DNA from: Ectothiorhodospiraceae bacterium WFHF3C12 | GTDB taxonomy: Bacteria > Pseudomonadota > Gammaproteobacteria > Nitrococcales > Nitrococcaceae | Direction of reading: 5' to 3' | Assembly (NCBI GenBank): GCA_013519935.1 | Contig: JACDUA010000047.1 | Location: forward strand, 1-36,488 | Length of the DNA: 36,488 bases | Shown here: piece after piece, positions 117 to 29,914 of the stretch | How the letters are laid out: each line of letters opens with the position of its first letter | How positions within the stretch are numbered: the first letter of the stretch is position 1 | Translations under genes and position numbers: made by a program | The notes under the pieces: model-generated | Told to the model about the DNA's origin: nothing | Databases searched by the model: none | Seen by the model: the letters and a program-made list of their open reading frames with translations, nothing else

Positions 117-1112
117 TCAGTCCCCGCTCCGGCCGCGTTCGGTCTGTATGACGATCTTGCCGCGCGCCCGACGCTCGGCGATCTCCCGCAGCGCCCTGGC
201 GGTCTGCTCCAGCGGGTAGCGCTCGGTGATCACCGGCCGGACCCGGCCCTCGACCAGCCAGCCCATCAGCTCGTCCATGAGGGCGACGAAGCGCTCCGGC
301 TCCCGGTCCTGGAAGGCGGCGTAGAAGACGCCGACGATGGCGCAGCCCTTGAGCAGCGTGAGGTTCACCGGCAGTCGCGGGATCTCGCCGGCGGTGAAGC
401 CGATCACCAGGTAACGGCCGCGCCAGGCCATGGAACGCAGGGCGGGCTCGGCGTAGTCACCGCCCACCGGATCGTAGACGACGTCCACCCCCCGGCCGTC
501 GGTCAGCGCACGGATGGCTTCACGCAGATCTTCGTGGCTGTAGTTGACCGTATCCTGCGCGCCGTGCTCGCGGCACAGCGCCAGCTTCTCGTCGGAGGAA
601 GCGGCGGCGATAACCCGCGCGCCCATGGCGCGGCCGAGCTCCACGGCGGACAGGCCCGCGCCGCCGGCGGCACCCAGCACCAGCAGCGTCTCCCCGGTCT
701 GCAGGGCCGCGCGCTCGCGCAGGGCGTAATGGGTGGTGCCGTAGGTGATGACCAGCCCCGCGCCGGTGTCCATGGGCACGGAGTCGGGCAGGCGCACGAG
801 CTTGGCCGCCGGGACCGGCGCCAGCTCGGCGAAGGCGCCCCAGCCGGGGATGCCGATGACCCGGTCGCCGACGGTGAAGCCTTCCACGCCGGGGCCCAGG
901 GCGTGCACGGTGCCGGCCAGCTCGCCGCCGGGGACGAACGGCAGGTCCCGGCTGAACTGGTACCGGCCCTGGATGATCAGGTTGTCGGGATAGTTGGCCG
1001 CGGCGGCGTGGACGGCCACCATCACCTCCCCCGCCCCGGGCTCGGGATCGGGCCAGTCCTCCAGGGTCAGGGATTCCGGCGGCCCGTAACGATTGCAGAC
1101 GATCGCTTTCAT
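117..1112 (-). CDS. NADPH:quinone oxidoreductase-like zinc-independent MDR protein
   Basis: 331 residues, the usual length of QOR/crotonyl-CoA-reductase-like medium-chain dehydrogenases. The N-terminal GroES-like domain begins MKAIVCNRYG and contains PGGELAG at 61-67 and GDRV at 82-85. The Rossmann domain has the GAAGGAG loop at 147-153. The Cys and His ligands of zinc-dependent alcohol dehydrogenases are absent, so this should be the Zn-free type that reduces quinones or enone/enoyl substrates with NADPH. I chose the ATG at 1112 because upstream in-frame codons lack family similarity and overlap the preceding SDR gene, which stops at 1123. The spacing is 10 bp to the upstream gene and 3 bp to the downstream gene, so it is a clear operon member. 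The true substrate in this acyl-CoA operon is unknown; 2-enoyl-CoA reduction is possible. Confidence 0.88.
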   Translation of the reverse strand: MKAIVCNRYGPPESLTLEDWPDPEPGAGEVMVAVHAAAANYPDNLIIQGRYQFSRDLPFVPGGELAGTVHALGPGVEGFTVGDRVIGIPGWGAFAELAPVPAAKLVRLPDSVPMDTGAGLVITYGTTHYALRERAALQTGETLLVLGAAGGAGLSAVELGRAMGARVIAAASSDEKLALCREHGAQDTVNYSHEDLREAIRALTDGRGVDVVYDPVGGDYAEPALRSMAWRGRYLVIGFTAGEIPRLPVNLTLLKGCAIVGVFYAAFQDREPERFVALMDELMGWLVEGRVRPVITERYPLEQTARALREIAERRARGKIVIQTERGRSGD

Positions 1113-1122
1113 GGCATCACGC

Positions 1123-1911
1123 TCAGGCCAGCGCCACGGAGAAACCGCCGTCCACCGGCAGCGTCGCGCCGCTGACGAACGCGCCGCTGGCGGCACACAG
1201 ATAGAGCACGGCGTAGCCGATCTCCTCCGGCTCGCCGAGGCGTTTGACGGTGCTCTTGTCCACGATCTGCGCCTTGGCGTCCTCGTCGTAGGCATCGGCG
1301 AGCTTGGTCTTGATCACGCCGGGCAGCACCGTGTTGGCGCGGATGCCCTCCTCGCCGTATTCCAGGGCAAAGGAGCGGCTCATGCCGATCAGCGCGGTCT
1401 TCAGCGTGGAGTAGAGCCCCAGCATCCGGTCCGGGTGCCAGGCGGCGATGGACGCGATGTTGACGATGCTGCCGCCTCCGCGCTCGCGCATGAGCTTCAC
1501 GCCCTCCACGGACATGAACCAGTAGCCGCGCAGGTCTACCTCGACTGTCTTGGTGAACAGCCCCAGATCGACGTCCTCGATCCGCCGCCAGGGGCTCAGC
1601 ACGGCGTTGTTCACGAGTATGTCCAGCCCGCCGTGGGTCTCGCGCAGGTGGGCCGCCATGGACTCGATGTCCTCCATGCGGCCGATGTGGCAGACCCGGG
1701 CCTCGGCGCTCAGGCCCGCGTCCCGGAACTCCCCGGCGACCCGCTCGCAGTCCTCGGCCTTGCGGCTGCTGATGATCACGTGGGCGCCGGCCCGGGCCAG
1801 GACCCGGGCCGTGGCCTCGCCGATGCCGCCGGAGGACCCGGTGACCAGGGCCACCTGGCCGCCGAGGTCGAACGGATGGGGCATGGCTACCTGCTGACCG
1901 GACGCACTCAT
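1123..1911 (-). CDS. SDR-family oxidoreductase (classical, complete)
   Basis: 262 residues. The cofactor loop TGSSGGIG is at 24-31, NNAV at 101-104, catalytic Ser154 in NIAS, and Tyr167/Lys171 in YSTLK. A substrate-side PG follows at 197-198 and the family's C-terminal PVDGG is at 252-256, so all classical SDR catalytic elements are intact. The ATG at 1911 overlaps the stop of the upstream gene by 4 bases (ATGA), indicating translational coupling; a second ATG nine codons in is possible. A reading frame continues much further upstream, but that part is the shadow of the neighbouring gene. Context suggests oxidation of a 3-hydroxyacyl-CoA intermediate in the same pathway as the adjacent dehydratases and acyl-CoA dehydrogenase. 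This role is inferred from position only. Confidence 0.9.
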   Translation of the reverse strand: MSASGQQVAMPHPFDLGGQVALVTGSSGGIGEATARVLARAGAHVIISSRKAEDCERVAGEFRDAGLSAEARVCHIGRMEDIESMAAHLRETHGGLDILVNNAVLSPWRRIEDVDLGLFTKTVEVDLRGYWFMSVEGVKLMRERGGGSIVNIASIAAWHPDRMLGLYSTLKTALIGMSRSFALEYGEEGIRANTVLPGVIKTKLADAYDEDAKAQIVDKSTVKRLGEPEEIGYAVLYLCAASGAFVSGATLPVDGGFSVALA

Positions 1912-3251
1912 GGATTCTCTCCCCCGCTTTGGCCGCCTCCGCCGGACCACGGCCCCATGCCGATCTGCGCCAGCAGATCCGGATCCATGTCCTCGCGGGC
2001 GGCGGCCTTCTTGTAGGTGAACTGCCGGCAGGCCTCGCCCGGGCGCAGCTGGGCGTGGCCGTCGATGACGAAGAAACGCGGACTGTCGCCCTCCGGGCCG
2101 CTCTTGAGCTGGGCCCGGTTCGAGGCCGCGCAATGCGTGCAGTAGGTGGGCGCCTGGCGGCGGTTGAAATTGATGTCGTGGGGCTCGTCCATCAGCGGCG
2201 CCATGGGCTCGCCGTAATGGAACATGCCCCGCCAGACCTGGCCCCGGAACAGCCGGCCGCCGCTGCCGCAGGGGTCCAGCCGGAAGACGAAGCGGTCGTC
2301 CTCCTCGTGGATGGTGAAATCCGCGCAGTGGTAGTTCCAGGTCCGCGCCACCTCCCGGACGAGCTCCTCGTCGCTCATGGCCCGGTAGCGGGGGAACCCC
2401 GCGTGGAAGGCGGGCTCGTAGGTCTGCTCCAGCATCTCGTCCAGGTAGTCGGCGCCGCCGATCTCCAGGGCGCTGGCGTAGAAATGCTCCAGCCAGACGA
2501 TGCCGAAGTCGTGCCAGGGCATCCAGTCCTTGCGCTGGCCGCGGAGCAGCGGCTCGATGTCCGTGTCGCCGGCGTCGAGCCGGCCGCGGGCCCGTTGCAC
2601 CCGGGTCTGCACCACCGTTGTCCGCTCGCTGTCGGTGAACAGCGCCTCGCCCTGCTGGGCGCGCTTGGCGAAGCGCATGCGGCAGAAGCCGTCGTCCCCC
2701 TTCTCGGTGGTCCAGACGTCCTCGCCCAGCGCGTCGTTCAGCGCCGTCTGACAGGCCTTGCAGGCCTGGCACAGGCCGCTGACCCCGTCGCTCCAGCCGG
2801 CATACCAGTCAGGGTGTTTCTCGGTCAGCCCCTGGCGTTCCAGGCGGCCGCCGCTGCCACAGGGGGCGAGGTCCACCACCACCTCGTCGCCGGTCTCCCG
2901 GACCGGCTGCAGCCGGGCGTCCCCCTGGTGCTTGTAGATGGCGATGATGTCGGTGACGGCGCCGCGCTCGTCGCCGTCGCGAAACTGGCTCACCCAGGTC
3001 TTCATCTGCTCGGCGCCAATGCGCTCCAGCGTTTTCCGGGCGCGGTCCTCGCCGAGATCCTGACGGAGCTTGCCCACCTTGCGGGCCAGTGCGTGCCCGG
3101 ACAGCGCGTCCAGCCCGGCCTGACCCTGGGCCATGTCGTCCAGCCAGGCCCGGACGCCGTCGAGATCGCCCCGGCGCAGGGCGTCGATGGCGTGCTCCTC
3201 CGGTGGCCGGGCAATCTCCGCGAGCGCGGCGTCGCTGTACTGTCTGGTCAT
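1908..3251 (-). CDS. Unrecognised 447-residue protein with two CGSGGRL/Cys-cluster half-domains
   Basis: I cannot assign a function. The protein is built from two similar halves. Each has a short strand ending in PCGSGGRL (130-137 and 327-334), then a Cys pair or triplet about 24-37 residues later (CQACKACQ at 161-168; CTHC at 371-374), then a single Cys before a basic/aromatic strand (C190 in FCRMRF; C408 in ACRQFTY). The spacing looks like a duplicated metal-binding or thiol-active domain. The linker (200-320) is rich in Trp, His and acidic residues. There is no signal peptide or membrane segment, so it is probably cytosolic. It sits between the acyl-CoA dehydrogenase (35 bp upstream) and an SDR (4-bp overlap), so it is almost certainly co-transcribed with acyl-CoA genes. 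The ATG at 3251 was chosen because family-like charged sequence begins there. A distant link to the thiazoline-carboxylate (ATC) hydrolase family came to mind but cannot be verified here. Confidence 0.85.
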   Translation of the reverse strand: MTRQYSDAALAEIARPPEEHAIDALRRGDLDGVRAWLDDMAQGQAGLDALSGHALARKVGKLRQDLGEDRARKTLERIGAEQMKTWVSQFRDGDERGAVTDIIAIYKHQGDARLQPVRETGDEVVVDLAPCGSGGRLERQGLTEKHPDWYAGWSDGVSGLCQACKACQTALNDALGEDVWTTEKGDDGFCRMRFAKRAQQGEALFTDSERTTVVQTRVQRARGRLDAGDTDIEPLLRGQRKDWMPWHDFGIVWLEHFYASALEIGGADYLDEMLEQTYEPAFHAGFPRYRAMSDEELVREVARTWNYHCADFTIHEEDDRFVFRLDPCGSGGRLFRGQVWRGMFHYGEPMAPLMDEPHDINFNRRQAPTYCTHCAASNRAQLKSGPEGDSPRFFVIDGHAQLRPGEACRQFTYKKAAAREDMDPDLLAQIGMGPWSGGGGQSGGENP

Positions 3252-3286: not shown

Positions 3287-4492
<1,206 letters not shown>

Positions 4493-4563: not shown

Positions 4564-4998
4564 TCAATTGGCTGGCCGCCCGGACTCCGGGCGGAAACGC
4601 ACCACGGCCTCGCCGGGGGTGTTGGTCTGGCCCTGCTCATTGACCACGGCCAGTGTCAGGCGGACGTCGCCGGTGTCCGGGTCCACCACCTCGACGCGGC
4701 CTTCCGCCCGCAGGGTCTCGCCCAGATAGGCCGCCCGGCGGTTGGAATACCGGAACTCGACCAGCTCCCCCGCGCCATCGATCCACTCCAGCACCAGCTG
4801 GGTCAGCCAGTCGCCCTGCAGGGGACCATCGATGACGATGCCCGGGTGGCCCTCCACCTCGGTGGTGTAAGGGGCGTCGTAGTGGATGCGGTGGGGGTTC
4901 CAGATGGCGGCGTTGTACATGAAAAGCTGCACCTCGTCGGGCTTGAAGGTGCGCGCCGGCAGGGCCTCCCCCTCCTTGATGTCTTTCAGTTCGGGCAC
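4564..4998 (-). CDS. MaoC-like hot-dog dehydratase (enoyl-CoA hydratase 2 family)
   Basis: 144 residues, a single hot-dog domain. The hydratase motif is NPHRIHYD at 34-41, with His39 and the following Asp41 as the expected catalytic residues of R-specific hydratases. It starts with GTG (complement of 4996-4998), preceded by GAGGTGA about 5 bases upstream; that ribosome-binding site overlaps the stop of the FAS1-like gene, so the two are translationally linked. Pairs of this kind (short MaoC plus FAS1-like N-terminal-type dehydratase) commonly form a heteromer that hydrates a 2-enoyl-CoA. The product would feed the SDRs downstream. Substrate chain type is unknown. Confidence 0.9.
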   Translation of the reverse strand: MPELKDIKEGEALPARTFKPDEVQLFMYNAAIWNPHRIHYDAPYTTEVEGHPGIVIDGPLQGDWLTQLVLEWIDGAGELVEFRYSNRRAAYLGETLRAEGRVEVVDPDTGDVRLTLAVVNEQGQTNTPGEAVVRFRPESGRPAN

Positions 4999-5002
4999 GG
5001 GA

Positions 5003-5458
5003 TCACCTCGCTATGCGGGTCACGCGTTCGATCATGACCGGCTCGCCGTCCCGGGTCTCGACCCGGTTTTCCACCACCGCGAAGATCAGCGGCCCCTGGC
5101 TGCCGGCTTTCTCGTAGAGATCCACCAGCGTCTGCGTTGAGACCAGCACGTCGCCCGGGTAGATGCCGCGATGGAAGGTCGCCTCGGATCCGCCGGCCAT
5201 GACCCGGGTCAGCGGCAACTCCGGCACCAGTCCGTCGTCCGGCTGGCGGCCGTCGGCGAGCATCCGTTCGCGGGGCAGGATGTCCAGGAACAGCCCGAAC
5301 AGGAACATGGGCGGCGCCTCGTCGCCGTCGATGAAGCGCTTCAGCCGCTGCCCGGTGGCAGCGGCGTATTTGCGGATCTCGCGCCGGGTCACCTCCGCGG
5401 TTACCGGCGGCAACGACCGGCCTACCTCGGCCTTGAGTTCTGGCGTCAACAAAGACAT
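5003..5458 (-). CDS. FAS1-like/MaoC N-terminal-type dehydratase subunit
   Basis: 151 residues. The sequence resembles the N-terminal MaoC dehydratase half, with IRKYAAATGQ at 28-37, a Pro-rich loop (APPMF at 48-52), and HRGIYPGD at 96-103 followed by a strand typical of the hot-dog fold. It lacks the NPxxxH catalytic motif of its partner, as expected for the structural half of a two-subunit hydratase. The start is the ATG at 5458, preceded by GGTGGG; an in-frame TTG four codons upstream is less likely. It is the first gene of the minus-strand operon and is transcribed from the region carrying two tandem ACCAA-N4-TTGGT palindromes, 134-167 bp upstream. Confidence 0.85.
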   Translation of the reverse strand: MSLLTPELKAEVGRSLPPVTAEVTRREIRKYAAATGQRLKRFIDGDEAPPMFLFGLFLDILPRERMLADGRQPDDGLVPELPLTRVMAGGSEATFHRGIYPGDVLVSTQTLVDLYEKAGSQGPLIFAVVENRVETRDGEPVMIERVTRIAR

Positions 5459-5591
5459 GGCCCACCGCAAGTTCCGGGATTCACCCGGAGTCTATTCAGC
5501 GCTGGCGGCGGGCGTCTTGCGGAGACTGGCTGCGCCCCGGAACGCGTGGTCCTCACGCCGCCGGTCAGCGGCCGCCGTGGACGGCGGCTCT

Positions 5592-7293: not shown

Positions 7294-8073
7294 CTAACGA
7301 CCCGTCCACTGGGGTTTGCGTTTCTCGTTGAAGGCCGCGAGGCCCTCCTTCGCGTCTTCGGTCAGGGCCATGGTGCCGATCTGGCTTTCGGTGTAGGCGA
7401 TGGCCTGTTCGAAGGTCATGCCCTCGATGGCGCGCATGGCGTACTTGCCCCGGCGGATGGCCGTGGGCGACTTGTCCGACAGCCGCTCGATGAGCCAGTC
7501 GACTTTCTCGTCCAGCTCGCCGCGCGGTACCACGTGGTTGACCAGGCCGTGGATACGGGCCTCCTCGGCGGGGAACGGCTCGCCGGTGAAGCACCATTCC
7601 CGCAGCACGCGCTGGGGCACCAGCCGCTGCATGAGGCTGAGCACCTGCATGGGGAACACGCCGACCTTGACCTCCGGCAGGCCGAAGATAACGTCGTCGG
7701 GGGCCACGGCCATGTCGACCATGCACAGCAGCCCCATGCCGCCGGCCATGCAGACCCCGTTCACCCGGGCGATGCTCGGCACGGTGGAGCCCGAAGCCAG
7801 CCGCAGCAGATCGGCGTACTCCACGTTGGGCTGGGAGAAATCGAAGGCGAAACCCTTGCCCGGCTGCAGGTCAGCGCCGGCGCAGAAGGCCTTCTCGCCG
7901 GCGGCGGTCAGCACGATGACGCGAATGTCCGGGTCGGCGTGGGCCTGCTCGTAGCCCTCGCGAATCCCGGCAATCACCGCCTGGTTGATGGCGTTGCGCT
8001 TCTCCGGGCGGTTGATGGTGATCCACAGCTCGTGGCCGCGGCGCTCGTGGAGCACTTCCTGCCCTTCGGCCAT
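7294..8073 (-). CDS. Enoyl-CoA hydratase/isomerase, AtuE/LiuC-like
   Basis: 259 residues, crotonase fold. The CoA/oxyanion elements are CAGADL (64-69) and MAGGMG (109-114). The second catalytic glutamate is kept as Glu134 in GLPEVKVG, but the first (Glu144 of rat crotonase, in GGGCEL) is Gly114 here. Loss of the first Glu with retention of the second is, as I recall, seen in LiuC-type (methylglutaconyl-CoA) and AtuE-type hydratases. It is the last gene of an operon with the biotin-dependent carboxylase, 12 bp behind the alpha subunit. That fits hydration of a carboxylated branched enoyl-CoA such as 3-methylglutaconyl-CoA or isohexenylglutaconyl-CoA. Family certain; substrate inferred from context. 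Confidence 0.92.
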   Translation of the reverse strand: MAEGQEVLHERRGHELWITINRPEKRNAINQAVIAGIREGYEQAHADPDIRVIVLTAAGEKAFCAGADLQPGKGFAFDFSQPNVEYADLLRLASGSTVPSIARVNGVCMAGGMGLLCMVDMAVAPDDVIFGLPEVKVGVFPMQVLSLMQRLVPQRVLREWCFTGEPFPAEEARIHGLVNHVVPRGELDEKVDWLIERLSDKSPTAIRRGKYAMRAIEGMTFEQAIAYTESQIGTMALTEDAKEGLAAFNEKRKPQWTGR

Positions 8074-8085
8074 GGCGTACCTCCG

Positions 8086-10074
8086 TTATTCCTTCGTTTG
8101 CTCTTCGCCCTCGATCTCGACGACGACCTTCTGCGCGGCGACCTGATCGCCCTCGCCCACGGTCAGCGAGGCGACCTTGCCGGAGACGGTGGCCACGTGG
8201 ACGTGCTCCATCTTCATGGCCTCCAGCACGATCAGCGACTGACCGCTCTCGACGTAATCGCCCTCGCTGACGTGAACGGCAACGACACGGCCGTTCATGG
8301 CGGCGCGCACCTTGCCGTCGCCCCCGGAGAGGTCCTCGCGGGTCGCGGGGGCGTAGGTATGATCATGGATGCGGTAGGCGTGGCCGCGGTAGCGGAACAT
8401 CAGCACTTCCTGGTCGCGGACCAGGATCGCCGTCTCGGTGAGCCCGTCGCAGGAGAACGTGACCCGGTCCGCCTGGATGCCCAGCAGGTCCACCGTCAGG
8501 CCATAGTCCTCGCCCTCCATCACCACCTCGAAGCGGCCGTCGTCGTCGAGCTGGATGTCGGCGACGCAACGCTCGGGGCCGACGTCGAAGCGGAAGATCA
8601 ACGGCAGCCGGTGAGCGATGGGACTGACCTCGCCCCGGTGGGTGCCCTGCATGTCCGTGGTGAACAGCAGCACCGCCGCCAGGGCACGGGCCCTGGCGTC
8701 CACGTCCTCGTCGCGGGCCAGCAGGGCCTCGCCGTGGGCGTCGATGTAGGCCGTGGTGGCGCCGCCCTCGGCGAAGACGTCGTGGCGCAGGCAGCGCATC
8801 AGGAAGGCCTGGTTGGTCTCCACGCCCAGGGCGACGGCATCCTCCAGGGCGCTGGCGAGCCGGCGCCGGGCCTCGTCCCGGTCGTCGCCGTGGCTGATGA
8901 GCTTGGCGATCATCGAGTCGTAGAAGGGCGGGATCTCCGACCCCGACTCGATGGCGTCCTCGACGCGGATACCGGCCGGCATGCGCCACAGCGCCATGGT
9001 GCCGCTCTGGGGCATGAACGACTGCTCGGGGCTCTCTGCGCAGAGGCGGACCTCGATGCTGTGGCCGCTGTAACTCACCTGATCCTGGCTGATGGGCAGC
9101 GGCTCGCCGGCCGCCGCCCGCAGCTGCAGCTCCACCAGGTCCAGGCCGGTAATGGCCTCGGTCACCGGGTGCTCGACCTGCAGCCGCGTGTTCATCTCCA
9201 TGAAGTAGTAGTTGCCGTCGCGGTCGAGCAGGAACTCCAGGGTGCCGGCGCCCTCGTATTCGATGGCCTTGGCCGCCGCCACGGCGGTGGCGCCCATCTC
9301 GGCGCGCAGGCTCTCGTCGACGGCGGGCGAGGGGGCCTCCTCGATGACCTTCTGGTGGCGGCGCTGCACGGAGCAATCGCGCTCGCCCAGGTGGATGGCG
9401 TTGCCGTGGCGGTCGGCGACGACCTGGATCTCCACGTGGCGGGGCTCCAGGATGGCGCGCTCCAGGATCACGTCGGCGTCGCCGAAGGCGCTCTCCGCCT
9501 CGGACCGGGCGCTGCGCAGCGCCTCGGGAAAGCTGGCGGCGTCCTCGACCAGGCGCATGCCGCGGCCGCCGCCGCCGGCGGTGGCCTTGATCATGATGGG
9601 GAAGCCAATGCGCTCGGCCTCCTCGACCAGCTTCGCCTCGCTCTGGTCCTCGCCCTGGTAGCCGGGCACGCAGGGCACGCCCGCCTCGGTCATCAGCCGC
9701 TTGGCGCCGGCTTTGTGGCCCATGGCCTCGATGGCCCCGGCCGACGGCCCGATGAACACGATGCCCGCCTCGGCACAGGCCCGGGGCAGGTCCGCGTTCT
9801 CGGCGAGAAAGCCATAGCCGGGATGGATGGCGTCGGCGCCGCTGATCCGCGCCGCCTCCATGATGCGGTCGATGCGCAGATAGGACTCCGCCGGGAGCGC
9901 CTCGCCGATGTGCACGGCCTGATCGGCGGCCCGGACGTGCCGGGCGCTGCGATCGGCGCTGGAATAGACCGCCACCGTGCGGTAACCCATGGCCCGGGCG
10001 GTGCGGATCACCCGCAGGGCGATCTCGCCGCGGTTGGCGATGAGAATCTTGTTGAAGGGGGTCGGTTTGCTCAT
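8086..10074 (-). CDS. Acyl-CoA carboxylase alpha subunit (biotin carboxylase + biotin carrier)
   Basis: 662 residues, the length of MCC/GCC/PCC-type alpha subunits. The biotin carboxylase N domain starts at 8 (ILIANRGEIAL), the ATP-grasp glycine loop GGGGRGM is at 167-173, ERDCSVQRRHQK at 231-242, and EMNTRLQVEH at 293-302. The C-terminal biotinyl domain has EAMKM with the biotinylated Lys at 621. It carboxylates biotin with ATP and bicarbonate for the beta subunit. It lies 62 bp after the beta gene and 12 bp before the hydratase. The set carboxylase beta-alpha-hydratase matches both leucine (Liu) and acyclic terpene (Atu) modules. I cannot separate methylcrotonyl- from geranyl-CoA specificity from the alpha subunit. 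Confidence 0.95.
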   Translation of the reverse strand: MSKPTPFNKILIANRGEIALRVIRTARAMGYRTVAVYSSADRSARHVRAADQAVHIGEALPAESYLRIDRIMEAARISGADAIHPGYGFLAENADLPRACAEAGIVFIGPSAGAIEAMGHKAGAKRLMTEAGVPCVPGYQGEDQSEAKLVEEAERIGFPIMIKATAGGGGRGMRLVEDAASFPEALRSARSEAESAFGDADVILERAILEPRHVEIQVVADRHGNAIHLGERDCSVQRRHQKVIEEAPSPAVDESLRAEMGATAVAAAKAIEYEGAGTLEFLLDRDGNYYFMEMNTRLQVEHPVTEAITGLDLVELQLRAAAGEPLPISQDQVSYSGHSIEVRLCAESPEQSFMPQSGTMALWRMPAGIRVEDAIESGSEIPPFYDSMIAKLISHGDDRDEARRRLASALEDAVALGVETNQAFLMRCLRHDVFAEGGATTAYIDAHGEALLARDEDVDARARALAAVLLFTTDMQGTHRGEVSPIAHRLPLIFRFDVGPERCVADIQLDDDGRFEVVMEGEDYGLTVDLLGIQADRVTFSCDGLTETAILVRDQEVLMFRYRGHAYRIHDHTYAPATREDLSGGDGKVRAAMNGRVVAVHVSEGDYVESGQSLIVLEAMKMEHVHVATVSGKVASLTVGEGDQVAAQKVVVEIEGEEQTKE

Positions 10075-10136: not shown

Positions 10137-11756
10137 TCAGGGCCGCGCCACGGAGAACTGCATGCGGTGCGGATCTCTCGCCTCCGCCTCGCGGCAGACC
10201 GAGAGCACGAAGGAGAGGACCGTGCGCGTGTCGCGGGGATCGATCACGCCGTCGTCCAGCAACCGGGCGCTGGTGGTGAACACGTCCATCTGGCTGTCGA
10301 AGGTCTCGATGATCTGCTTCTCCAGCTTCTCGAGCTTTTCATGGTCCACCTCGCCCTTTCGCTTCATGGCCGCCTCGGTGACGATGCTCATGGTCCTGGC
10401 CGCCTGCTCGCCGCCCATGACCGCCGTCTTGGCGTTGGGCCAGGAGAAGCAGAAGCGCGGGTGGAACCCCCGGCCGCACATGCCGTAGTTGCCCGCCCCG
10501 AACGATGCACCGCAGTAGAGCGTGATCTGGGGGACGGTGGCGTTGGTGACCGCCTGGATCATCTTCGAGCCGTGCTTGATCATGCCGGCCTGCTCGGTTT
10601 CCGTGCCCACCATGTAGCCGGTGGTGTTGTTGAGATAGATGATCGGCGTGCGGGCCTGGCAGCAGGACTGGATGAAGTGGGTGGCCTTGTTGGCCCCGGC
10701 CACGTCGATGGGGCCGTTGTTCGTGATGATGCCCACCGGCCGGCCCTCGATGCGGGCGTTGCCGCAGACGGTCGAAGGCCCGTAGTTGGCGCCGAACTCC
10801 ACGAAATCGGAATCGTCGATGATCCGGGCAATGACCTCCTTCATGTCCACGGGCCGCTTGTGGTCCATGGGCATGATGCCCAGCAGCTCGTCGGCGTCGT
10901 ACCGCGGCGCCCGGTAATCCCGCGCCGGCTCCTCGGGCACCTGGCTGTTCCAGTCGAAATTGCCGACGATCTCCCGGACCAGGCGCAGCGCGTCGCGATC
11001 GTCTTCTGCGAGGTAGTCGCCCAGGCCGGAGATGGTGGTGTGCATCTCCGCGCCGCCCAGATCCTCCTCGGTGGCCTCCTCGCCGGTGGCCGCCTTGAGC
11101 AGCGGCGGCCCCGCCAGGAACGCCCGGGAGCGGCCGCGCACCATGATGATGTAGTCCGAAAGCCCGGTCTGATAGGCACCGCCGGCTGTGGAGGAGCCGT
11201 GGGTCACCGTGACGACGGGCAGGCCCGCCGCCGACAGCCGGGCCAGGTTGCGGAACAGGCTGCCGCCGCGGACGAAGTCCTCCACCCGGTAGTTGGGCAG
11301 GTTGGCGCCGGCGCTCTCCACCAGCTGCACGTAGGGCAGCTTGTTCTCCAGGGCCAGCTCCTGGGCCCGGAGCTGCTTGTCGAGGCCCATGGGCTGCATG
11401 GCGCCGGCATCGATGCCGGAATCCGACGCCGCCAGCATCACCCGCACGCCGGAGACGTAGCCGATGCCCACGATGGTGCCGCCCCCGGGCACGCTCTCGT
11501 CGGGGTCCGGACGGTCCATGCAGTAGCCGGCCAGGGTGGAGAGCTCCAGGAACGGTGCGCCGGGGTCGAGGACCAGGGCGATGCGTTCGCGGGGCAGGAG
11601 CTGGCCGCGGCGCTCGAAACGCTCCTTGGAGCGGGCGGACTTCTGCCGGGTACGCTCCTCCAGCCCCCGCACCCGTTCCAGCAGGGCGCGCATGCCTTCG
11701 GTGTTGTCCCGGAAGGTCTCGCCGGAGATGGGAATCTTCGATTCGATGACTGCCAT
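10137..11756 (-). CDS. Acyl-CoA carboxylase beta subunit (carboxyltransferase)
   Basis: 539 residues. Two crotonase-like carboxyltransferase halves are visible. The N half has the oxyanion segment TAGGAY at 190-195 and GPPLLKAATGEEA at 216-228; the C half has NNTTGYMVG and CGASFGAGNYGMCGRG. This is the MCC/GCC-type carboxyltransferase that moves CO2 from biotin to the gamma carbon of a 3-methyl-2-enoyl-CoA, or to a related acyl-CoA. The stretch RGRSRAFLAGPP and GGAEMHTTISGLGDY look more like AtuC-type and 'acyl-CoA carboxylase' homologues than like textbook MCC beta, but this is a visual impression. The ATG at 11756 was chosen because upstream codons are repetitive Arg/Ala. It is the first gene of its operon, with an operator-like palindrome about 215 bp upstream. 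Confidence 0.93.
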   Translation of the reverse strand: MAVIESKIPISGETFRDNTEGMRALLERVRGLEERTRQKSARSKERFERRGQLLPRERIALVLDPGAPFLELSTLAGYCMDRPDPDESVPGGGTIVGIGYVSGVRVMLAASDSGIDAGAMQPMGLDKQLRAQELALENKLPYVQLVESAGANLPNYRVEDFVRGGSLFRNLARLSAAGLPVVTVTHGSSTAGGAYQTGLSDYIIMVRGRSRAFLAGPPLLKAATGEEATEEDLGGAEMHTTISGLGDYLAEDDRDALRLVREIVGNFDWNSQVPEEPARDYRAPRYDADELLGIMPMDHKRPVDMKEVIARIIDDSDFVEFGANYGPSTVCGNARIEGRPVGIITNNGPIDVAGANKATHFIQSCCQARTPIIYLNNTTGYMVGTETEQAGMIKHGSKMIQAVTNATVPQITLYCGASFGAGNYGMCGRGFHPRFCFSWPNAKTAVMGGEQAARTMSIVTEAAMKRKGEVDHEKLEKLEKQIIETFDSQMDVFTTSARLLDDGVIDPRDTRTVLSFVLSVCREAEARDPHRMQFSVARP

Positions 11757-11951
11757 AGTGCCTACAACCCGGGGTTTGATACCGTCGTATCGGTCACCGC
11801 GGCGCCGGCGCTGTTCGAGCGCGGCCGGCGCCGCGGGCCGTCCAGCCAAGTTCCGATCACCCTAACCGGGCGCTGGTAGCCGGTCTTGCGAGAATTGGCT
11901 GTCCGAGACCGCTCCGGCGCAGGGTGCTTGGGTGTCACCGCCAGTGAAGCT

Positions 11952-24835: not shown

Positions 24836-26638
24836 ATGTCTGAGAGAGCCATTCGCATCGGCGGCGCCTCCGGGTACTGGGGCGACACCGCCATCGGTCC
24901 CTTCCAGCTCGTCGAGGCGGGGGACGTGGATTACCTGATCTTCGACTACCTGGCGGAGATCACCATGTCCATCCTGGCCAAGGCCCGGGAGAAGGATCCC
25001 CAGGGCGGCTACGCCACCGATTTCATCTCGCGGGTCATGAAGCCGCTGATCACGCAGATCGCCGAGAAGCGGATCAAGGTGCTGGCCAACGCCGGCGGCG
25101 TGAACCTGCAGGCCTGCCGGGAGGCGCTGGAGCAGGTGGCGAAGGACGCCGGGGTGGACCTGAAGATCGGCACCGTCGAGGGCGACAACCTGCTGCCCCG
25201 GCTGGAGGAGCTGCGCGGCATGGACATCCGGGAAATGGGCACCGGGGAACCGCTGCCGGACCAGGTCATGAGCGTCAACGCCTACCTGGGCGCCTTCCCC
25301 ATCGCCGCCGCCCTCGACGCCGGCGCCGACATCGTGGTCACGGGCCGCTGCGTGGACAGCGCCCTGGCAGTGGCGCCGCTGATCCACGAGTTCGGCTGGC
25401 GGCCGGACGACTACGACCGGCTCGCCGCCGGCGGCCTGGTGGGCCACGTCATCGAGTGCGGTGCCCAGGCCACCGGCGGCAACTTCACGGACTGGGACGA
25501 GACCTGGGAAGACTGGGAGAACACCGGTTTCCCCATCGCCGAGGTGGGCGCCGACGGCAGCTTCGTGCTTACCAAGCCGCCCGGCACCGGCGGCGCGGTG
25601 ACCCCCTTCACGGCGGGCGAGCAGATGCTCTACGAGATCGGCGATCCCGGCGCCTACGCGCTGCCCGACGTCATCTGCGATTTCACCGGCGTGACCATGG
25701 AGCAGGCCGCCGAGGACCGGGTGCTGATCCAGGGCGCGCGGGGCTACGAGCCCACCGCGACTTACAAGGTAAGCGCCACCTATCCCGACGGCTTCGGCTG
25801 CGTCGGCGTGTTCACCATCGCCGGCCGGCGGGCGGCGGAGAAGGCACGCCGCCAGGGCCAGGCGGTGCTGAACAAGACCCGGGACATGCTGCAGCGCGCC
25901 GGGCTTGGCGATTACACCAAGACCGCGCTGCAGCTGGTGGGCACGGAGCATCTCTACGGCGACCAGGCCCGCCCGGAGGCCCGCGAGAACCGCGAGGTGG
26001 TGCTGCGGCTGGGGATCCACCATCCCCGCCGGGAAGGCGCGGACATCTTCTCCAAGGAGTTCGTGGGCGCCGGACTGTCCATGGCGCCGGGTCTGACGGG
26101 GCTGTCCCCCGGCCGGCCCCGGCCCACGCCCATAGTGCGGCTGTTCTCCTTCCTCCTGGACAAGGACGCCGTGCCGGTGGACGTGCGCGTCGGCGGCGAG
26201 CCGGTGTCCGTGCCCCACACCGTTGCCCGCGGCAACGGCGTCATCCCGGCCGGATCCGCGACCCCGGGGCCGACGCCGGAGGCCGAAGGCGAGACCGTGG
26301 AAGTACCCCTGTACCGCCTGGCGGTGGCCCGCAGCGGCGACAAGGGCGACAAAGCCAACATCGGCGTCATCGCCCGGAAGCCGGAATACCTGCCCTACCT
26401 GCGCGCGGCGCTGACGCCGGCTTTCGTGGGCCGGTACTTCAGCCACGTGACGCGGGGCGAGGTGGAACGCTTCGACCTGCCGGGCACCCAAGCCATGAAC
26501 TTCCTGCTGCATGAATCCCTGGACGGGGGGGGCGTGGCCTCGCTGCATCTCGACCCGCAGGCCAAGACCTACGCCCAGGTATTGCTGGACGCCCCGATTC
26601 CCGTTCCCCGGGAGAAGCCCGCCGAATGGGGGATCTAG
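24836..26638 (+). CDS. AtuA-family protein (DUF1446 plus C-terminal ferredoxin-like domain)
   Basis: 600 residues. The large N-terminal domain starts IRIGGASGYWGDT (6-18), includes VLANAGGVN and VTGRCVDSALAVAP, and spans about 1-450. A C-terminal domain (about 488-600) carries SGDKGDKANIG (500-510). This two-part layout is that of AtuA from the acyclic terpene utilisation cluster of Pseudomonas, where the protein is needed for citronellol/geraniol growth but its reaction is unknown. No signal peptide, so cytosolic. GGAGC lies about 7 bases before the ATG and overlaps the end of the dehydrogenase gene region. Followed after 119 bp by the TRAP binding protein. Strong marker that the pathway handles a branched or terpenoid-like acid, but not proof. 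Confidence 0.93.
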   Translation: MSERAIRIGGASGYWGDTAIGPFQLVEAGDVDYLIFDYLAEITMSILAKAREKDPQGGYATDFISRVMKPLITQIAEKRIKVLANAGGVNLQACREALEQVAKDAGVDLKIGTVEGDNLLPRLEELRGMDIREMGTGEPLPDQVMSVNAYLGAFPIAAALDAGADIVVTGRCVDSALAVAPLIHEFGWRPDDYDRLAAGGLVGHVIECGAQATGGNFTDWDETWEDWENTGFPIAEVGADGSFVLTKPPGTGGAVTPFTAGEQMLYEIGDPGAYALPDVICDFTGVTMEQAAEDRVLIQGARGYEPTATYKVSATYPDGFGCVGVFTIAGRRAAEKARRQGQAVLNKTRDMLQRAGLGDYTKTALQLVGTEHLYGDQARPEARENREVVLRLGIHHPRREGADIFSKEFVGAGLSMAPGLTGLSPGRPRPTPIVRLFSFLLDKDAVPVDVRVGGEPVSVPHTVARGNGVIPAGSATPGPTPEAEGETVEVPLYRLAVARSGDKGDKANIGVIARKPEYLPYLRAALTPAFVGRYFSHVTRGEVERFDLPGTQAMNFLLHESLDGGGVASLHLDPQAKTYAQVLLDAPIPVPREKPAEWGI

Positions 26639-26757
26639 GTTCGTGTCGCGCCAGGGACGGCGGACACCCATTGACGACGACCCAAGCGCCACGAACGCCG
26701 GATCAGCGTGAGGCGGTGCCCCGAGAAAAACAGCGCGGTATCACGACGAGGTGTGTC

Positions 26758-27918
26758 ATGAAATACACAAGGTCCTTCCTGAGAGTTGCGTTGTCCGGCC
26801 TGATCGGCGCGGGCGCCCTGCTGGGCTCGGCGGCTTCGGCCGAGGAGCTTCGCTATGCCATGGGCATGCCCCCGGGCTCCATCTCCGCGCAGATCGGCGA
26901 GGACTACGCGGAGGCCGTCAAGGAGTACTCCGACGGCGAAGTCACGGTGAAGGTCTACCCGCTGTCCCTGCTCAACTTCGCCGAAACCTCGGCGGGCGTG
27001 CGCGACGGCATCGCCGACATCGGCTATCTCCTGGCCCCCTACTTCCCCTCCGAATACCCGCACTTCAACATGATCGCCGAGGCGTCGATGGTCCTGACCC
27101 TCATGGGCGAGGAGGTCCGCGGCAGGGAGGGCATGGCCTACGTGGGCGCCATGTCGGAGTTCGTCTTCTTCGACTGCCCCGAATGCAACCAGGACTTCGC
27201 GGACCAGAACCAGGTCTTCACCGGCAGCACCGGCAGCTCGCCCTACATCCTCCAGTGCACCGAGCCGGTCACCACCATCGAGGACGTCAAGGGCAAGCGC
27301 CTACGGGTGGGCGCGGCCAGCTGGTCGCGCTGGGCGGAGGACATCGGCGCCGTGCCGGTGACCATGTCCGCCAACGAGATGCTGGAGGCCCTGGACCAGG
27401 GCGTCGTCGACTGCATCGTGCTGTCCGTGCCGGAGATCCGCAATTTCGGCCTCGGCGATACGGTCACCGACATCACCCGCGTGGTGCCGGGCGGCATCTT
27501 CGCCGGAACGGCGGTGACCAACTTCAACCGCGACACCTGGCAGTCGCTGAACGACAACGAGCGCGCGGCGCTGCTGCGGGCCGGGGCCATCACCTCCGCG
27601 GCCACCCCCTGGGAATACCACAAGCGCCACGAGACCATCCTCGCCGAGATGGAGCAGGAAGGCGCCGAAGTCCACGACCCGGACCCGGCCCTGGTCGAGG
27701 AGATCCGGGCGTTCACCCGGGAGGACATGGAGACCATCGCCGAGAACTATAGCGACAAGCACGGCGTGGAGCGGGGCGAGGAAATGATCGCCCGCTTCCG
27801 GGAGCTCCTCGACAAGTGGGTCGGCCTGGTCCAGGACGTGGACAGCCGCCAGGAGCTGGTGGATCTGTACTGGGAGGAGATCTTCTCCCGCGTGGATCCC
27901 GCCACCCACGGGATGTAG
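26758..27918 (+). CDS. TRAP transporter solute-binding protein (with its membrane subunits)
   Basis: 386 residues. Signal peptide 1-28 with SAASA cleavage site; mature protein periplasmic. The substrate-anchoring Arg lies in GKRLRVGA (179-186). Cysteines at 140, 143, 167 and 219 match those of the orphan paralogue at 5808. GAGGTG lies about 5 bases before the ATG; the reading frame extends upstream but without family similarity. Followed by a stem-loop and then DctQ- and DctM-type genes, so this is the complete transporter of the window. The placement between AtuA-family and ligase genes indicates that it imports the acid activated by the ligases (inference). Confidence 0.95.
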   Translation: MKYTRSFLRVALSGLIGAGALLGSAASAEELRYAMGMPPGSISAQIGEDYAEAVKEYSDGEVTVKVYPLSLLNFAETSAGVRDGIADIGYLLAPYFPSEYPHFNMIAEASMVLTLMGEEVRGREGMAYVGAMSEFVFFDCPECNQDFADQNQVFTGSTGSSPYILQCTEPVTTIEDVKGKRLRVGAASWSRWAEDIGAVPVTMSANEMLEALDQGVVDCIVLSVPEIRNFGLGDTVTDITRVVPGGIFAGTAVTNFNRDTWQSLNDNERAALLRAGAITSAATPWEYHKRHETILAEMEQEGAEVHDPDPALVEEIRAFTREDMETIAENYSDKHGVERGEEMIARFRELLDKWVGLVQDVDSRQELVDLYWEEIFSRVDPATHGM

Positions 27919-27931
27919 CAGCGGCGGCGCG

Positions 27932-27957
27932 CCGCGGCGGGGACGGAACCGCCGCGG
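27932..27957 (+). other. Stem-loop between binding-protein and membrane-subunit genes
   Basis: CCGCGGCGG (27932-27940) / CCGCCGCGG (27949-27957), perfect 9-bp stem, 8-base loop, no T-run. Such hairpins often let the binding protein be made in excess over the membrane subunits by protecting the 5' part of the mRNA. Confidence 0.5.
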
Positions 27958-28038
27958 CCGCCGTCCGGCTCTGGCGCCCTAGCCGAACGTGCGACATCAG
28001 GCCCGCGGCCGGAGATCAGCAAGAGGCACAGTCAAGTC

Positions 28039-28584
28039 ATGCTCTATCGCCTGGGTCGGTTACTCGCGGCAATCACCAACGTCACGACGGTCATCGGCGG
28101 TCTGGCCATCGCCCTGATGATGTTCCATGTAACGGCCGCCGTGGCGGCAAGGTACCTGTTCGGTACGCCGCTGCCCGGCACCATCACCATCGTCTCCTAC
28201 TACTACATGCTCATCGCCGCTTTCATTCCGCTGGCCTACGCGGAACAGAAAGAGGCGCACATCTCCGTCGAGGTCCTCACCGAACGCCTGCCGGCGGGTC
28301 TGCAGCGACACCTGGCCGGCTGGGGGCTGCTGCTGTCGGCGGCGGCATTCACGGTGCTGACCTGGCGCACCTGGCTCGAAGCCGTGGGCAAATACGCCGA
28401 CGGCGCATCGGTGGTCCAGGGCAACACCAGCATCATGGTCTGGCCCACCTACTTCGTGCTGCCCGTCGGTTTCGGGCTGATGGCGCTGGTGGCCGTGTAC
28501 AAGTTCCTGCTCTACCTCACCGGCGCGCGCTCGGGTCTGGACGAACATCGCGCCCGGCCCGAGGAGATCGAGACCGCGGAATAG
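28039..28584 (+). CDS. TRAP transporter small membrane subunit (DctQ type)
   Basis: 181 residues with four predicted membrane helices: about 9-35, 48-70, 90-112 and 131-157. The short loop AYAEQKEAHISVEVLTERLP after helix 2 is the DctQ signature region (xxKxxxHIxVD/E). It pairs with DctM to form the sodium-coupled inner-membrane transporter. Ribosome-binding site AAGAGG lies further than usual (about 11 bases). Located 120 bp after the binding protein and 19 bp before DctM. Confidence 0.93.
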   Translation: MLYRLGRLLAAITNVTTVIGGLAIALMMFHVTAAVAARYLFGTPLPGTITIVSYYYMLIAAFIPLAYAEQKEAHISVEVLTERLPAGLQRHLAGWGLLLSAAAFTVLTWRTWLEAVGKYADGASVVQGNTSIMVWPTYFVLPVGFGLMALVAVYKFLLYLTGARSGLDEHRARPEEIETAE

Positions 28585-28603
28585 CTGGAAGGCAAAACTC
28601 AAA

Positions 28604-29914
28604 ATGAGCGACGTAGAAATCGGCCTTACCGCGCTGGGGGTGCTCGTCGCCCTGATCGCCCTGCGGGTACCCATCGGAATCGCCCTGCTCACCGTATCGT
28701 TCGCCGGTTTGTGGATACTCATGGGCTGGCGCGTGGCCTGGGGCTCGCTGGGCATCATCCCGTACCAGTTCGCCTCCAACTGGGTGCTCTCGTCCGTACC
28801 CATGTTCCTGCTGCTGGGCTTCATGTGCTACCACACCCAGCTCACCCAGGGCCTGTTCCGGGCGGCGCGATTATGGCTTTCCGCCATCCCCGGCGGCATG
28901 GCCATCGCCGCCATATTCGGCTCCGCAGGCTTTGCCGCCGTATCCGGCTCGTCCGTGGCGTGTTCGGCCGCCATGGGCCGCATCGCGGTGCCGGAGATGA
29001 TCAAGCATCGGTATCACCCGGAGCTGGCCACCGGCACGGTGGCGGTGGCGGGCACCATTGGCGCGCTGATCCCGCCGTCCATCATCATGATCCTGTACGG
29101 CATCATCGCCGAGGTGCCCATCACGGGCCTGTTCCTCGGCGGCATCAGCGCCGGGTTGCTGACCACCGTGGGGTATATCGTCGTCGTGCTGGTCCGGGTC
29201 AAGCTCAACCCGGCGCTGGCGCCCCCCATCGACGAGAAGATTCCAACCTGGGAGAAGGTCGCCGCGCTGAAGGAGACCTGGCCGGTCATCCTCATAATGA
29301 TCGGCATATTCGGCGGCCTCTTCGGCGGCGTGTTCACGCCCACCGAGGCCGGAGCGGTGGGTGCTTTCCTGTCCGTGGTCGTCGCCGCGGTCAAGCGCTC
29401 GCTGAACTGGGAGCGCTTCCGCAACGCCGTGACGGAGACGCTGCTGACCACCGGCGCGCTGATCATCATCGCCGTGGGCGCCAGCCTGCTGACGCGCTTT
29501 CTCGCCCTGTCCGGCGCGGGCGGCTATCTCTCCGAGCTCATCATCGGCATGGATGCCAGCACGACGGTGCTGATGCTGGCCATCGTGGTGGTGTACCTGC
29601 TGCTGGGCATGTTCCTGGAGCCCATCGGCGCCATGCTGCTGACCCTGCCCATCGTGCTGCCCATAGTCAGCGAGGCGGGGCTGAGCCTGCTGTGGTTCGG
29701 GGTGTTGCTCACCAAGCTGCTCGAGATCGGCATGATCACGCCGCCCATCGGCATGAACGTATTCGTCATCAAGGGCGTGGTGCGGGATCTCGCATCCACC
29801 ACCAGCATCTTCAAGGGCATCTTCTGGTTCCTGGTCATGGACCTGGCCGTGATGCTGTTCCTGATGCTCTATCCCGATTTCATTCTCTACCTGCCCGAGA
29901 ACTTCGGTCGGTAG
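28604..29914 (+). CDS. TRAP transporter large permease subunit (DctM type)
   Basis: 436 residues, about 11-12 membrane helices. Signature segments include IFGSAGFAAVSGSSVA near the N-terminal hairpin, GTIGALIPPSIIMILYG (half-way helix break), FTPTEAGAVGAF and MITPPIGMNVFVIKG near the C-terminus; the two TP/PPS and TPP segments are the transport core repeats. It moves the ligand delivered by the binding proteins with sodium. 28 bp upstream of ligase 3, so operonic. Confidence 0.95.
   Translation: MSDVEIGLTALGVLVALIALRVPIGIALLTVSFAGLWILMGWRVAWGSLGIIPYQFASNWVLSSVPMFLLLGFMCYHTQLTQGLFRAARLWLSAIPGGMAIAAIFGSAGFAAVSGSSVACSAAMGRIAVPEMIKHRYHPELATGTVAVAGTIGALIPPSIIMILYGIIAEVPITGLFLGGISAGLLTTVGYIVVVLVRVKLNPALAPPIDEKIPTWEKVAALKETWPVILIMIGIFGGLFGGVFTPTEAGAVGAFLSVVVAAVKRSLNWERFRNAVTETLLTTGALIIIAVGASLLTRFLALSGAGGYLSELIIGMDASTTVLMLAIVVVYLLLGMFLEPIGAMLLTLPIVLPIVSEAGLSLLWFGVLLTKLLEIGMITPPIGMNVFVIKGVVRDLASTTSIFKGIFWFLVMDLAVMLFLMLYPDFILYLPENFGR

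Follow-up and report, generated by a model that had tools for sequence, protein, structure and literature searches.

A protein of two tandem four-Cys domains beside an ACAD11-type acyl-CoA dehydrogenase and its probable distant kinship to ATC hydrolase

The Locus and the DUO Gene

Here, we focus on a gene in a stretch of 36,488 nucleotides (contig JACDUA010000047.1, positions 1 to 36,488, assembly GCA_013519935.1) from Ectothiorhodospiraceae bacterium WFHF3C12; this whole stretch is referred to below as the window. The gene lies on the minus strand, and its open reading frame (ORF) is genuine, with an ATG at 3251 and a TGA ending at 1908. DUO is the label given here to the gene, its protein and their homologues. 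A previous reading of the same DNA from its letters (the sequence-only reading) described an unrecognised protein made of two Cys-containing half-domains and tied it to a pathway through its neighbours. The neighbours are arranged as it described: the ATG of a short-chain dehydrogenase/reductase (SDR) at 1911 sits within the DUO stop (ATGA), an overlap of 4 bases, and the ORF of an acyl-CoA dehydrogenase ends at 3287, which leaves a gap of 35 bases. The trio and the parts of the DUO protein are as follows.

1123-1911, minus strand: SDR dehydrogenase, overlapping DUO by 4 bases; downstream gene of the trio
1908-3251, minus strand: DUO, 447 amino acids (aa), single match in its own 4.6 Mb genome
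3287-4492, minus strand: ACAD10/11-type (LvaC-type) acyl-CoA dehydrogenase (ACAD1) with HCMR and Asp base; upstream gene of the trio
2637-3251, minus strand: N-half, residues 1-205; four Cys kept, counterparts of H308, H373 and N378 replaced
2841-2864, minus strand: PCGSGGRL, residues 130-137, including C131
2751-2771, minus strand: CQACKAC, residues 161-167; C161 and C164 invariant, C167 not
2682-2684, minus strand: C190, final conserved Cys of the N-half
1911-2636, minus strand: C-half, residues 206-447; keeps the residues common to the Rhodococcus relatives
2508-2513, minus strand: H247-D248, unchanged across the C-halves and the Rhodococcus relatives; whether H53 of the N-half answers to H247 varies with the alignment
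2328-2330, minus strand: H308, invariant in the C-half and the Rhodococcus relatives
2250-2273, minus strand: PCGSGGRL, residues 327-334, including C328
2130-2141, minus strand: CTHC, residues 371-374; C371, H373 and C374 invariant
2118-2120, minus strand: N378, with a pattern like that of H308; four residues past the second Cys of CxxC in both halves
2028-2030, minus strand: C408, final conserved Cys of the C-half

The protein is indeed unrecognised. NCBIfam gave no match and Pfam nothing above its cut-off (TPR_4 and GATA only below it), while the best matches had E-values of 0.55 among PDB sequences and 0.2 in PHROGs; all of these were rejected as chance. The motif letters CGSGGR do not occur in the literature text searched, and a surface search of the literature on naphthenic acids, AtuA and pRHL3 found nothing about the protein.

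Two Halves of One Domain

Reading the translated ORF bears out the motif PCGSGGRL at both of the places claimed for it. An 8-mer common to both halves arose in 0 of 20,000 shuffles of the protein, the longest in the shuffles being 7 residues, in 4 of the 20,000. The window's DUO has Cys at 131, 161, 164, 167 and 190 in the first half and at 309, 328, 371, 374 and 408 in the second. In a 22-row alignment of the family (A1), C131, C161, C164, C190, C328, C371, C374 and C408 are invariant, and C167 and C309 vary among the homologues. Each half keeps four Cys spaced as C-x(29/42)-CxxC-x(25/33)-C in 24 of 24 sequences, with the same conserved frame in both: a Cys in PCGSGG, then CxxC, then a later Cys. 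The downstream clusters of the sequence-only reading are therefore real as one CxxC per half, but the apparent CxxCxxC of the first half is not, C167 being unconserved; the single Cys it saw towards the end of each half are both conserved.

The likeness goes further than these letters. Aligned by hhalign, the profiles of the N-half and the C-half match with an E-value of 3.4e-9 and a score of 64, against 24.2 for the best of 60 column shuffles of the N-half. This bears out the proposal of two homologous half-domains and, judged from the profiles, marks the halves as a true duplication that extends beyond the shared motif. We regard the tandem-domain architecture as highly probable.

The domain also exists alone. 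Among 72,556 records of a plasmid collection, four Rhodococcus relatives were found, three of them in annotated records (WP_011600302.1, WP_065493512.1 and WP_226949923.1) where each is named "hypothetical protein". The RHA1 relative has 255 aa and one motif set, and those of R. opacus 1CP and SB3094 have an extra N-terminal stretch followed by one full motif set, so that DUO is the tandem form of a domain that occurs singly. The three proteins match the C-half with an E-value of 2.3e-21 and the N-half with 2.2e-10. Like DUO, they conserve PCGSG, HD, YCxHC, N and K and are located in catabolic operons; unlike DUO, they have one motif set instead of two, and the operons are different ones. The operon on plasmid pRHL3 of R. 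jostii RHA1 (L027:3161-14526; L numbers denote loci) holds genes for an acyl-CoA dehydrogenase, 2-oxoacid dehydrogenase E1/E2/E3, an alcohol dehydrogenase, an SDR and an AMP-ligase together with the single-set domain, and an IS3-like element lies within it. A second Rhodococcus plasmid operon (L028:6539-18776 and L029:6854-18987) combines the single-set domain with DUF1116, several SDRs, an alpha/beta hydrolase, two glutamine synthetase-like genes, a flavin adenine dinucleotide (FAD) oxidoreductase and an acetate-CoA ligase, and is apparently an uncharacterised catabolic route.

With these proteins at hand, residues were compared in a single alignment of 24 C-halves, 24 N-halves and the three Rhodococcus proteins, whose rows are related, so that 24 of 24 does not stand for 24 independent events. 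Common to both halves are the four Cys, the GSG of PCGSG (its Ser in 23 of 24 N-halves) and K414. All C-halves and Rhodococcus proteins carry H308, H373 and N378, whereas the N-halves have other residues there: Gln in place of H308 and of N378 in 24 of 24, and mostly Ala, Gly or Ile in place of H373. The residues H247 and D248 are less clear. H247 stands opposite D48 of the N-half in two alignments and opposite the invariant H53 in the half-versus-half profile alignment; D248 is replaced in the N-half in both alignments, in an unsure register. An initial count of five polar residues lost from the N-half was therefore dropped, and only H308, H373 and N378 are counted as lost.

This pattern separates the Cys from the polar residues. 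Because the Cys are kept in the half that lost the counterparts of H308, H373 and N378, they behave as structural residues, and those of each half most likely form a structural metal site. Since only the C-half and the Rhodococcus proteins keep the three polar residues without exception, the C-half would be the working half and the N-half its degenerate partner, although the agreement of the C-half with the Rhodococcus rows may partly reflect mere closeness, as the E-values show. The same pattern does not support the redox partner or thiol mechanism suggested by the sequence-only reading. Eight invariant Cys per protein would suit a redox partner or thiol enzyme working through Fe, Fe-S or a disulfide, but the Cys persist in the degenerate half, three of those in the N-half align with PF14196 (see below), and no ferredoxin, rubredoxin or thioredoxin match was obtained from NCBIfam, PDB sequences or Pfam. 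In addition, ACAD10/11 are active without an addition that other ACAD assays need, taken here to be an electron acceptor (PMC11342911; this and the other papers cited by PMC number are drawn on for the passages available). A redox or thiol role is, in our judgement, very improbable.

Kinship to ATC Hydrolase and V4R

The sequence-only reading had proposed a profile search of each half separately, and this gave an answer for one of the two: the N-half aligns with 34 sequences of ATC hydrolase (PF14196) at an hhalign probability of 94.9, an E-value of 4.7e-8 and a score of 55.2 across 135 columns, but the C-half alone reaches only E 0.21. Controls for the N-half score stayed well below it, at 19.6 or less for 60 shuffles, 16.4 for the reversed profile and 12.6-18.8 for ten unrelated families of the window. 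The combined profile gives E 8.4e-6 and the Rhodococcus profile E 0.0064. The three Cys of PF14196, which follow strand, helix and strand, occur in every one of the 34 sequences fetched, and C131, C161 and C190 of the N-half align on them; the counterparts in the C-half are reached only through its alignment with the N-half. C164 stands opposite the Asp of a CxxD that, counted by eye, is present in 28 of the 34. Against seven V4R sequences, the N-half gives E 0.0012 across 38 columns only and the C-half E 0.53.

The published links among these families lend this some context. A methanogen domain (MetOD1) is described as similar to HNOB, V4R and ATC hydrolase, with a three-Cys cluster in common with the latter two (PMC5847659). 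In V4R the zinc ligands are three Cys and one Glu, which are Cys151, Glu172, Cys177 and Cys185 in DmpR (PMC7264223 and PMC10715001). By its profiles, then, the N-half shows kinship to the ATC hydrolase/V4R/HNOB superfamily above the controls, and DUO is a protein without a family name, its motif letters absent from the literature searched, yet with a superfamily already known. As three Cys of the N-half fall on those of ATC hydrolase and V4R has a published zinc site, a metal site is to be expected in DUO, in a Cys4 variant. The metal binding raised by the sequence-only reading thus stands as far as homology carries it, and we consider such a site likely.

There are clear differences from both relatives. 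ATC hydrolase shares with the N-half three Cys in register over the 135 columns, but DUO lies below Pfam detection, is a tandem copy, has a fourth Cys (C164) in CxxC as well as the PCGSGG motif, and sits in an operon of CoA-thioester catabolism. V4R (PF02830; DmpR, PoxR, MopR), a published relative of ATC hydrolase (PMC5847659), is part of regulators whose other domains DUO lacks, and where V4R binds zinc by three Cys and a Glu, DUO would offer four Cys.

Predicted Structure

Modelled with AlphaFold2 on A1, the whole of DUO reached a mean predicted local distance difference test (pLDDT) score of 90.3 and a predicted template modelling (pTM) score of 0.88. In the model a helical stretch leads into a small sheet in each half; the CxxC lies where a helix begins and the last Cys where a strand begins. 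The top rows of a structural search with this model were a designed protein (Z 6.0), a receptor entry and BcsD. Further weak matches, mainly of the N-half and amid unrelated rows, were to TRAPP/Bet3 subunits (Z up to 5.2), H-NOX (up to 4.6) and the sensor domains of DmpR and PoxR (Z 3.5-3.8). Reading a fold from the top rows by themselves was rejected, as was reading a new fold from the want of a better match. The TRAPP, H-NOX and V4R matches agree weakly with the profile result: those of the N-half to the TRAPP/Bet3 and H-NOX fold are at Z 3.6-5.2, values below 8 that may reflect a common arrangement, and neither family has a sequence match to DUO.

Distribution and Operon Context

The genome collection yielded DUO homologues at 25 loci, with identities of 45-76% in the best segment, and by record title we take them to be spread over alpha-, beta- and gammaproteobacteria. 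Independent cases are fewer than 25, since L025 and L026 are two contigs of one metagenome-assembled genome (MAG) and L010/L021 and L005/L006 are near copies. The gene is rare, being present in 2 of 398 genomes of a phylum sample (the window's own and G213) and in 1 of 23 of the family (the window's own). At L008:8001-9311, in a Xanthobacteraceae MAG, the DUO gene contains an in-frame stop. The DUO of L023, a MAG titled Bordetella parapertussis, is near-identical to that of L022, a betaproteobacterial MAG, and the title may be misassigned.

The neighbour ACAD1 is of ACAD10/11 type. Its PDB matches are ACAD11 (8v3u, E 2e-140), 4hr3 ("putative acyl-CoA dehydrogenase", 8e-128) and FadE3 (2e-45), and it carries HCMR and RIGDGPDQV; HCMR and a catalytic Asp are the marks of ACAD10/11 (PMC12440821). 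After a kinase step, ACAD10 and ACAD11 convert 4-phosphoacyl-CoA to 2-enoyl-CoA (PMC12440821, PMC11342911), and in the lva operon of Pseudomonas putida the SDR LvaD reduces levulinyl-CoA to 4-hydroxyvaleryl-CoA (PMC6692424). The window shares with these systems an ACAD11-type dehydrogenase, an SDR and acyl-CoA ligases. It differs in having no LvaA-type kinase, and the passages of PMC12440821, PMC11342911 and PMC6692424 name no counterpart of DUO.

An ACAD1 orthologue (at least 75% identity) occurs in 14 of the 25 DUO loci and an SDR orthologue (at least 63%) in 17, with the absences soft, as several contigs are short and the flanks unequal. In a tree of 48 ACAD rows, ACAD1 of the window and of the 14 loci fall in one clade of 19 rows with 100/98 support, which also holds four copies from one genus without DUO; outside it lie the ACAD of L003 and second copies in L017 and L018. 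An ACAD11/LvaC-type neighbour of which one clade is linked to DUO points to 4-hydroxyacyl-CoA catabolism as the context. The link to a pathway claimed by the sequence-only reading is therefore upheld, in that DUO is part of a CoA-thioester catabolic operon.

The order ACAD-DUO-SDR of the window recurs in L004, L007, L014 and L020. Together with the 35-base gap and the 4-base overlap, it would suit a hydratase or isomerase that takes the enoyl-CoA of the ACAD11-type enzyme and leaves a hydroxyacyl-CoA for the SDR to oxidise, and the literature does not decide if ACAD10/11 perform the hydration of their product themselves (PMC11342911). However, the window already has a gene of the enoyl-CoA hydratase (ECH) family and one of dehydratase type, NCBIfam and Pfam searches gave DUO no kinship to hydratases, and the lva SDR, of which the window's SDR is a putative counterpart, is reported to reduce 4-oxoacyl-CoA instead of oxidising 3-hydroxyacyl-CoA (PMC6692424). 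A hydratase or isomerase therefore seems quite unlikely.

With ACAD-DUO-SDR and no LvaA-type kinase in the window, DUO could be thought a substitute for the kinase; three APH matches lie elsewhere in the genome. APH-type kinases are present in 7 of the 25 loci, in two groups 24-30% alike; the one from L018, which alone was compared, matches the PDB entries 3dxp (E 1e-85) and ACAD11 (1.7e-60). Plain replacement was rejected as the main reading, since flanks differ in length, kinase and DUO adjoin in L018 and L019 in the order ACAD, kinase, DUO, SDR, and the nearby kinases of L004, L010, L011, L013 and L021 also oppose it. Among the matches listed for 28 ACAD11-type loci without DUO, an APH-type kinase lies within about 1.5 kb in 16, and none includes a DUO match. 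Contigs 133 (its region read as L120) and 101 of the own genome hold at least three further ACAD11-type genes, one of them near an APH-type kinase, so that the genome has an ordinary lva-like pair besides the DUO trio.

The position directly after the kinase in L018 and L019 would also fit a non-enzymatic role, in which DUO, stabilised by metal, binds a ligand or acyl-CoA as a partner to the ACAD11-type enzyme or the kinase, in the manner of LvaB or V4R. LvaB (12 kDa) came down with LvaA in a pull-down (PMC6692424), a small aromatic compound is the ligand of V4R domains, and the weak structural matches of the N-half (Z 3.5-5.2) include the sensor domains of DmpR and PoxR. DUO is far larger than LvaB, however, and the invariance of H308, H373 and N378 in one half only resembles a reaction site. 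Moreover, among the loci of the Rhodococcus relatives, L028 and L029 lack an annotated acyl-CoA dehydrogenase in the vicinity, and the one in L027 is less than 45% identical to ACAD1. A binding partner is in our view somewhat unlikely.

The Wider Window

The remaining features of the window are the following.

117-1112, minus strand: quinone oxidoreductase-like gene (PIG3-like, QOR), same direction as DUO
4564-4998, minus strand: small gene, no family matched, upstream of ACAD1
5003-5470, minus strand: small gene with a FAS1-like dehydratase region, upstream of ACAD1
7294-8073, minus strand: ECH family
8086-10074, minus strand: biotin carboxylase
10137-11849, minus strand: geranyl-CoA carboxylase-type beta subunit
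24836-26638, plus strand: AtuA, acyclic terpene utilisation family
26626-29914: TRAP transporter

The carboxylase beta subunit is much closer to geranyl-CoA carboxylase (5ikl, E 1e-196) than to methylcrotonyl-CoA carboxylase (2e-140); the best PDB match of the alpha subunit is methylcrotonyl-CoA carboxylase. With this beta subunit and AtuA, the cluster looks like one for catabolism of acyclic terpenes or related branched acids. In the fetched stretches, only the Marinobacter loci (among L003, L005 and L006) have the carboxylase and ECH genes at 45% identity or more, so that DUO is tied to ACAD1 and the SDR rather than to the terpene genes; QOR recurs at that level in the Marinobacter loci, L018 and L019. 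The window also holds three acyl-CoA ligases and, near the contig end, two GGDEF-EAL proteins (32254-33912, plus strand; 34989-36401, minus strand).

A Proposed Role for DUO

As it travels with enzymes of 4-hydroxy acid breakdown, DUO probably supplies a step of that pathway. A hydrolase, one of the possibilities named in the sequence-only reading, is possible. Our best explanation as a whole, to which we give a probability of roughly 40%, is a metal-stabilised hydrolase or ring-opening enzyme that feeds the ACAD11/SDR module. Shown by the analysis are the duplication, the frame of conserved residues, the relation to the Rhodococcus proteins, the remote match between the N-half and PF14196 and the tie to a single ACAD11-type clade; zinc, the working C-half, hydrolysis and the substrate are inferred. 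DUO is a tandem duplication of one domain and would be a distant member of the ATC hydrolase/V4R/HNOB superfamily, the Cys4 site of each half (Cys, CxxC, Cys) most likely holding a structural zinc. The C-half would work through the His/His/Asn set H308, H373 and N378, together with H247-D248, with the N-half degenerate. The substrate may be a CoA thioester or its free acid, acted on most likely by hydrolysis or ring opening. ATC hydrolase, which converts L-ATC to S-carbamyl-cysteine (PMC10821248), itself opens a five-membered ring; by analogy, DUO could yield a 4-oxo or 4-hydroxyacyl unit that the overlapping SDR and the ACAD11-type enzyme would then process.

Several results weigh against this proposal. 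It is the C-half, the proposed working half, that fails on its own against the ATC profile, and the PF14196 model misses DUO and its halves even at E-values up to 10 (cut-off 28.1 bits) and finds nothing genome-wide at E-values up to 1. Foldseek with the whole model gave no match at E 0.001 or below (best 0.14), and the best PDB structure matches are weak, at Z 6 at most and led by a designed protein. Folded alone, the C-half has a pLDDT of 51, which could reflect a mutual dependence of the halves or no more than a shallow alignment. Eleven of the 25 loci lack an ACAD1 orthologue in the fetched stretch (L002, L003, L005, L006, L009, L012 and L022-L026), and several of these carry acyl-CoA ligases, SDRs or ABC/TRAP transport genes instead. 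Finally, the four genomes with an ACAD1 of the same clade have no DUO at E-values up to 1, and no ORF listed around their ACAD1 matches SDR, DUO or kinases, so an ACAD1-type dehydrogenase can work without DUO.

ACAD10/11-type enzymes were only recently assigned to 4-hydroxy acid breakdown, and bacteria may use variants of the route. DUO adds an unnamed protein that accompanies one ACAD11-type subclade across several groups of proteobacteria and, in the window, sits within a cluster of terpene type. A more ambitious view, which we hold to be unlikely as it stands, is that DUO founds a family of tandem Cys4-zinc acyl-CoA enzymes and, with the ACAD11 subclade and the SDR, makes up a variant 4-hydroxy/4-oxoacyl-CoA route, perhaps creating the 4-hydroxy group by opening a ring (a lactone or cyclic oxoacid) or bypassing an LvaA-type kinase. 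At the level of the family, DUO links hypothetical proteins with a hydrolase family and a sensor family in a single testable frame, centred on the working half and on zinc at the Cys.

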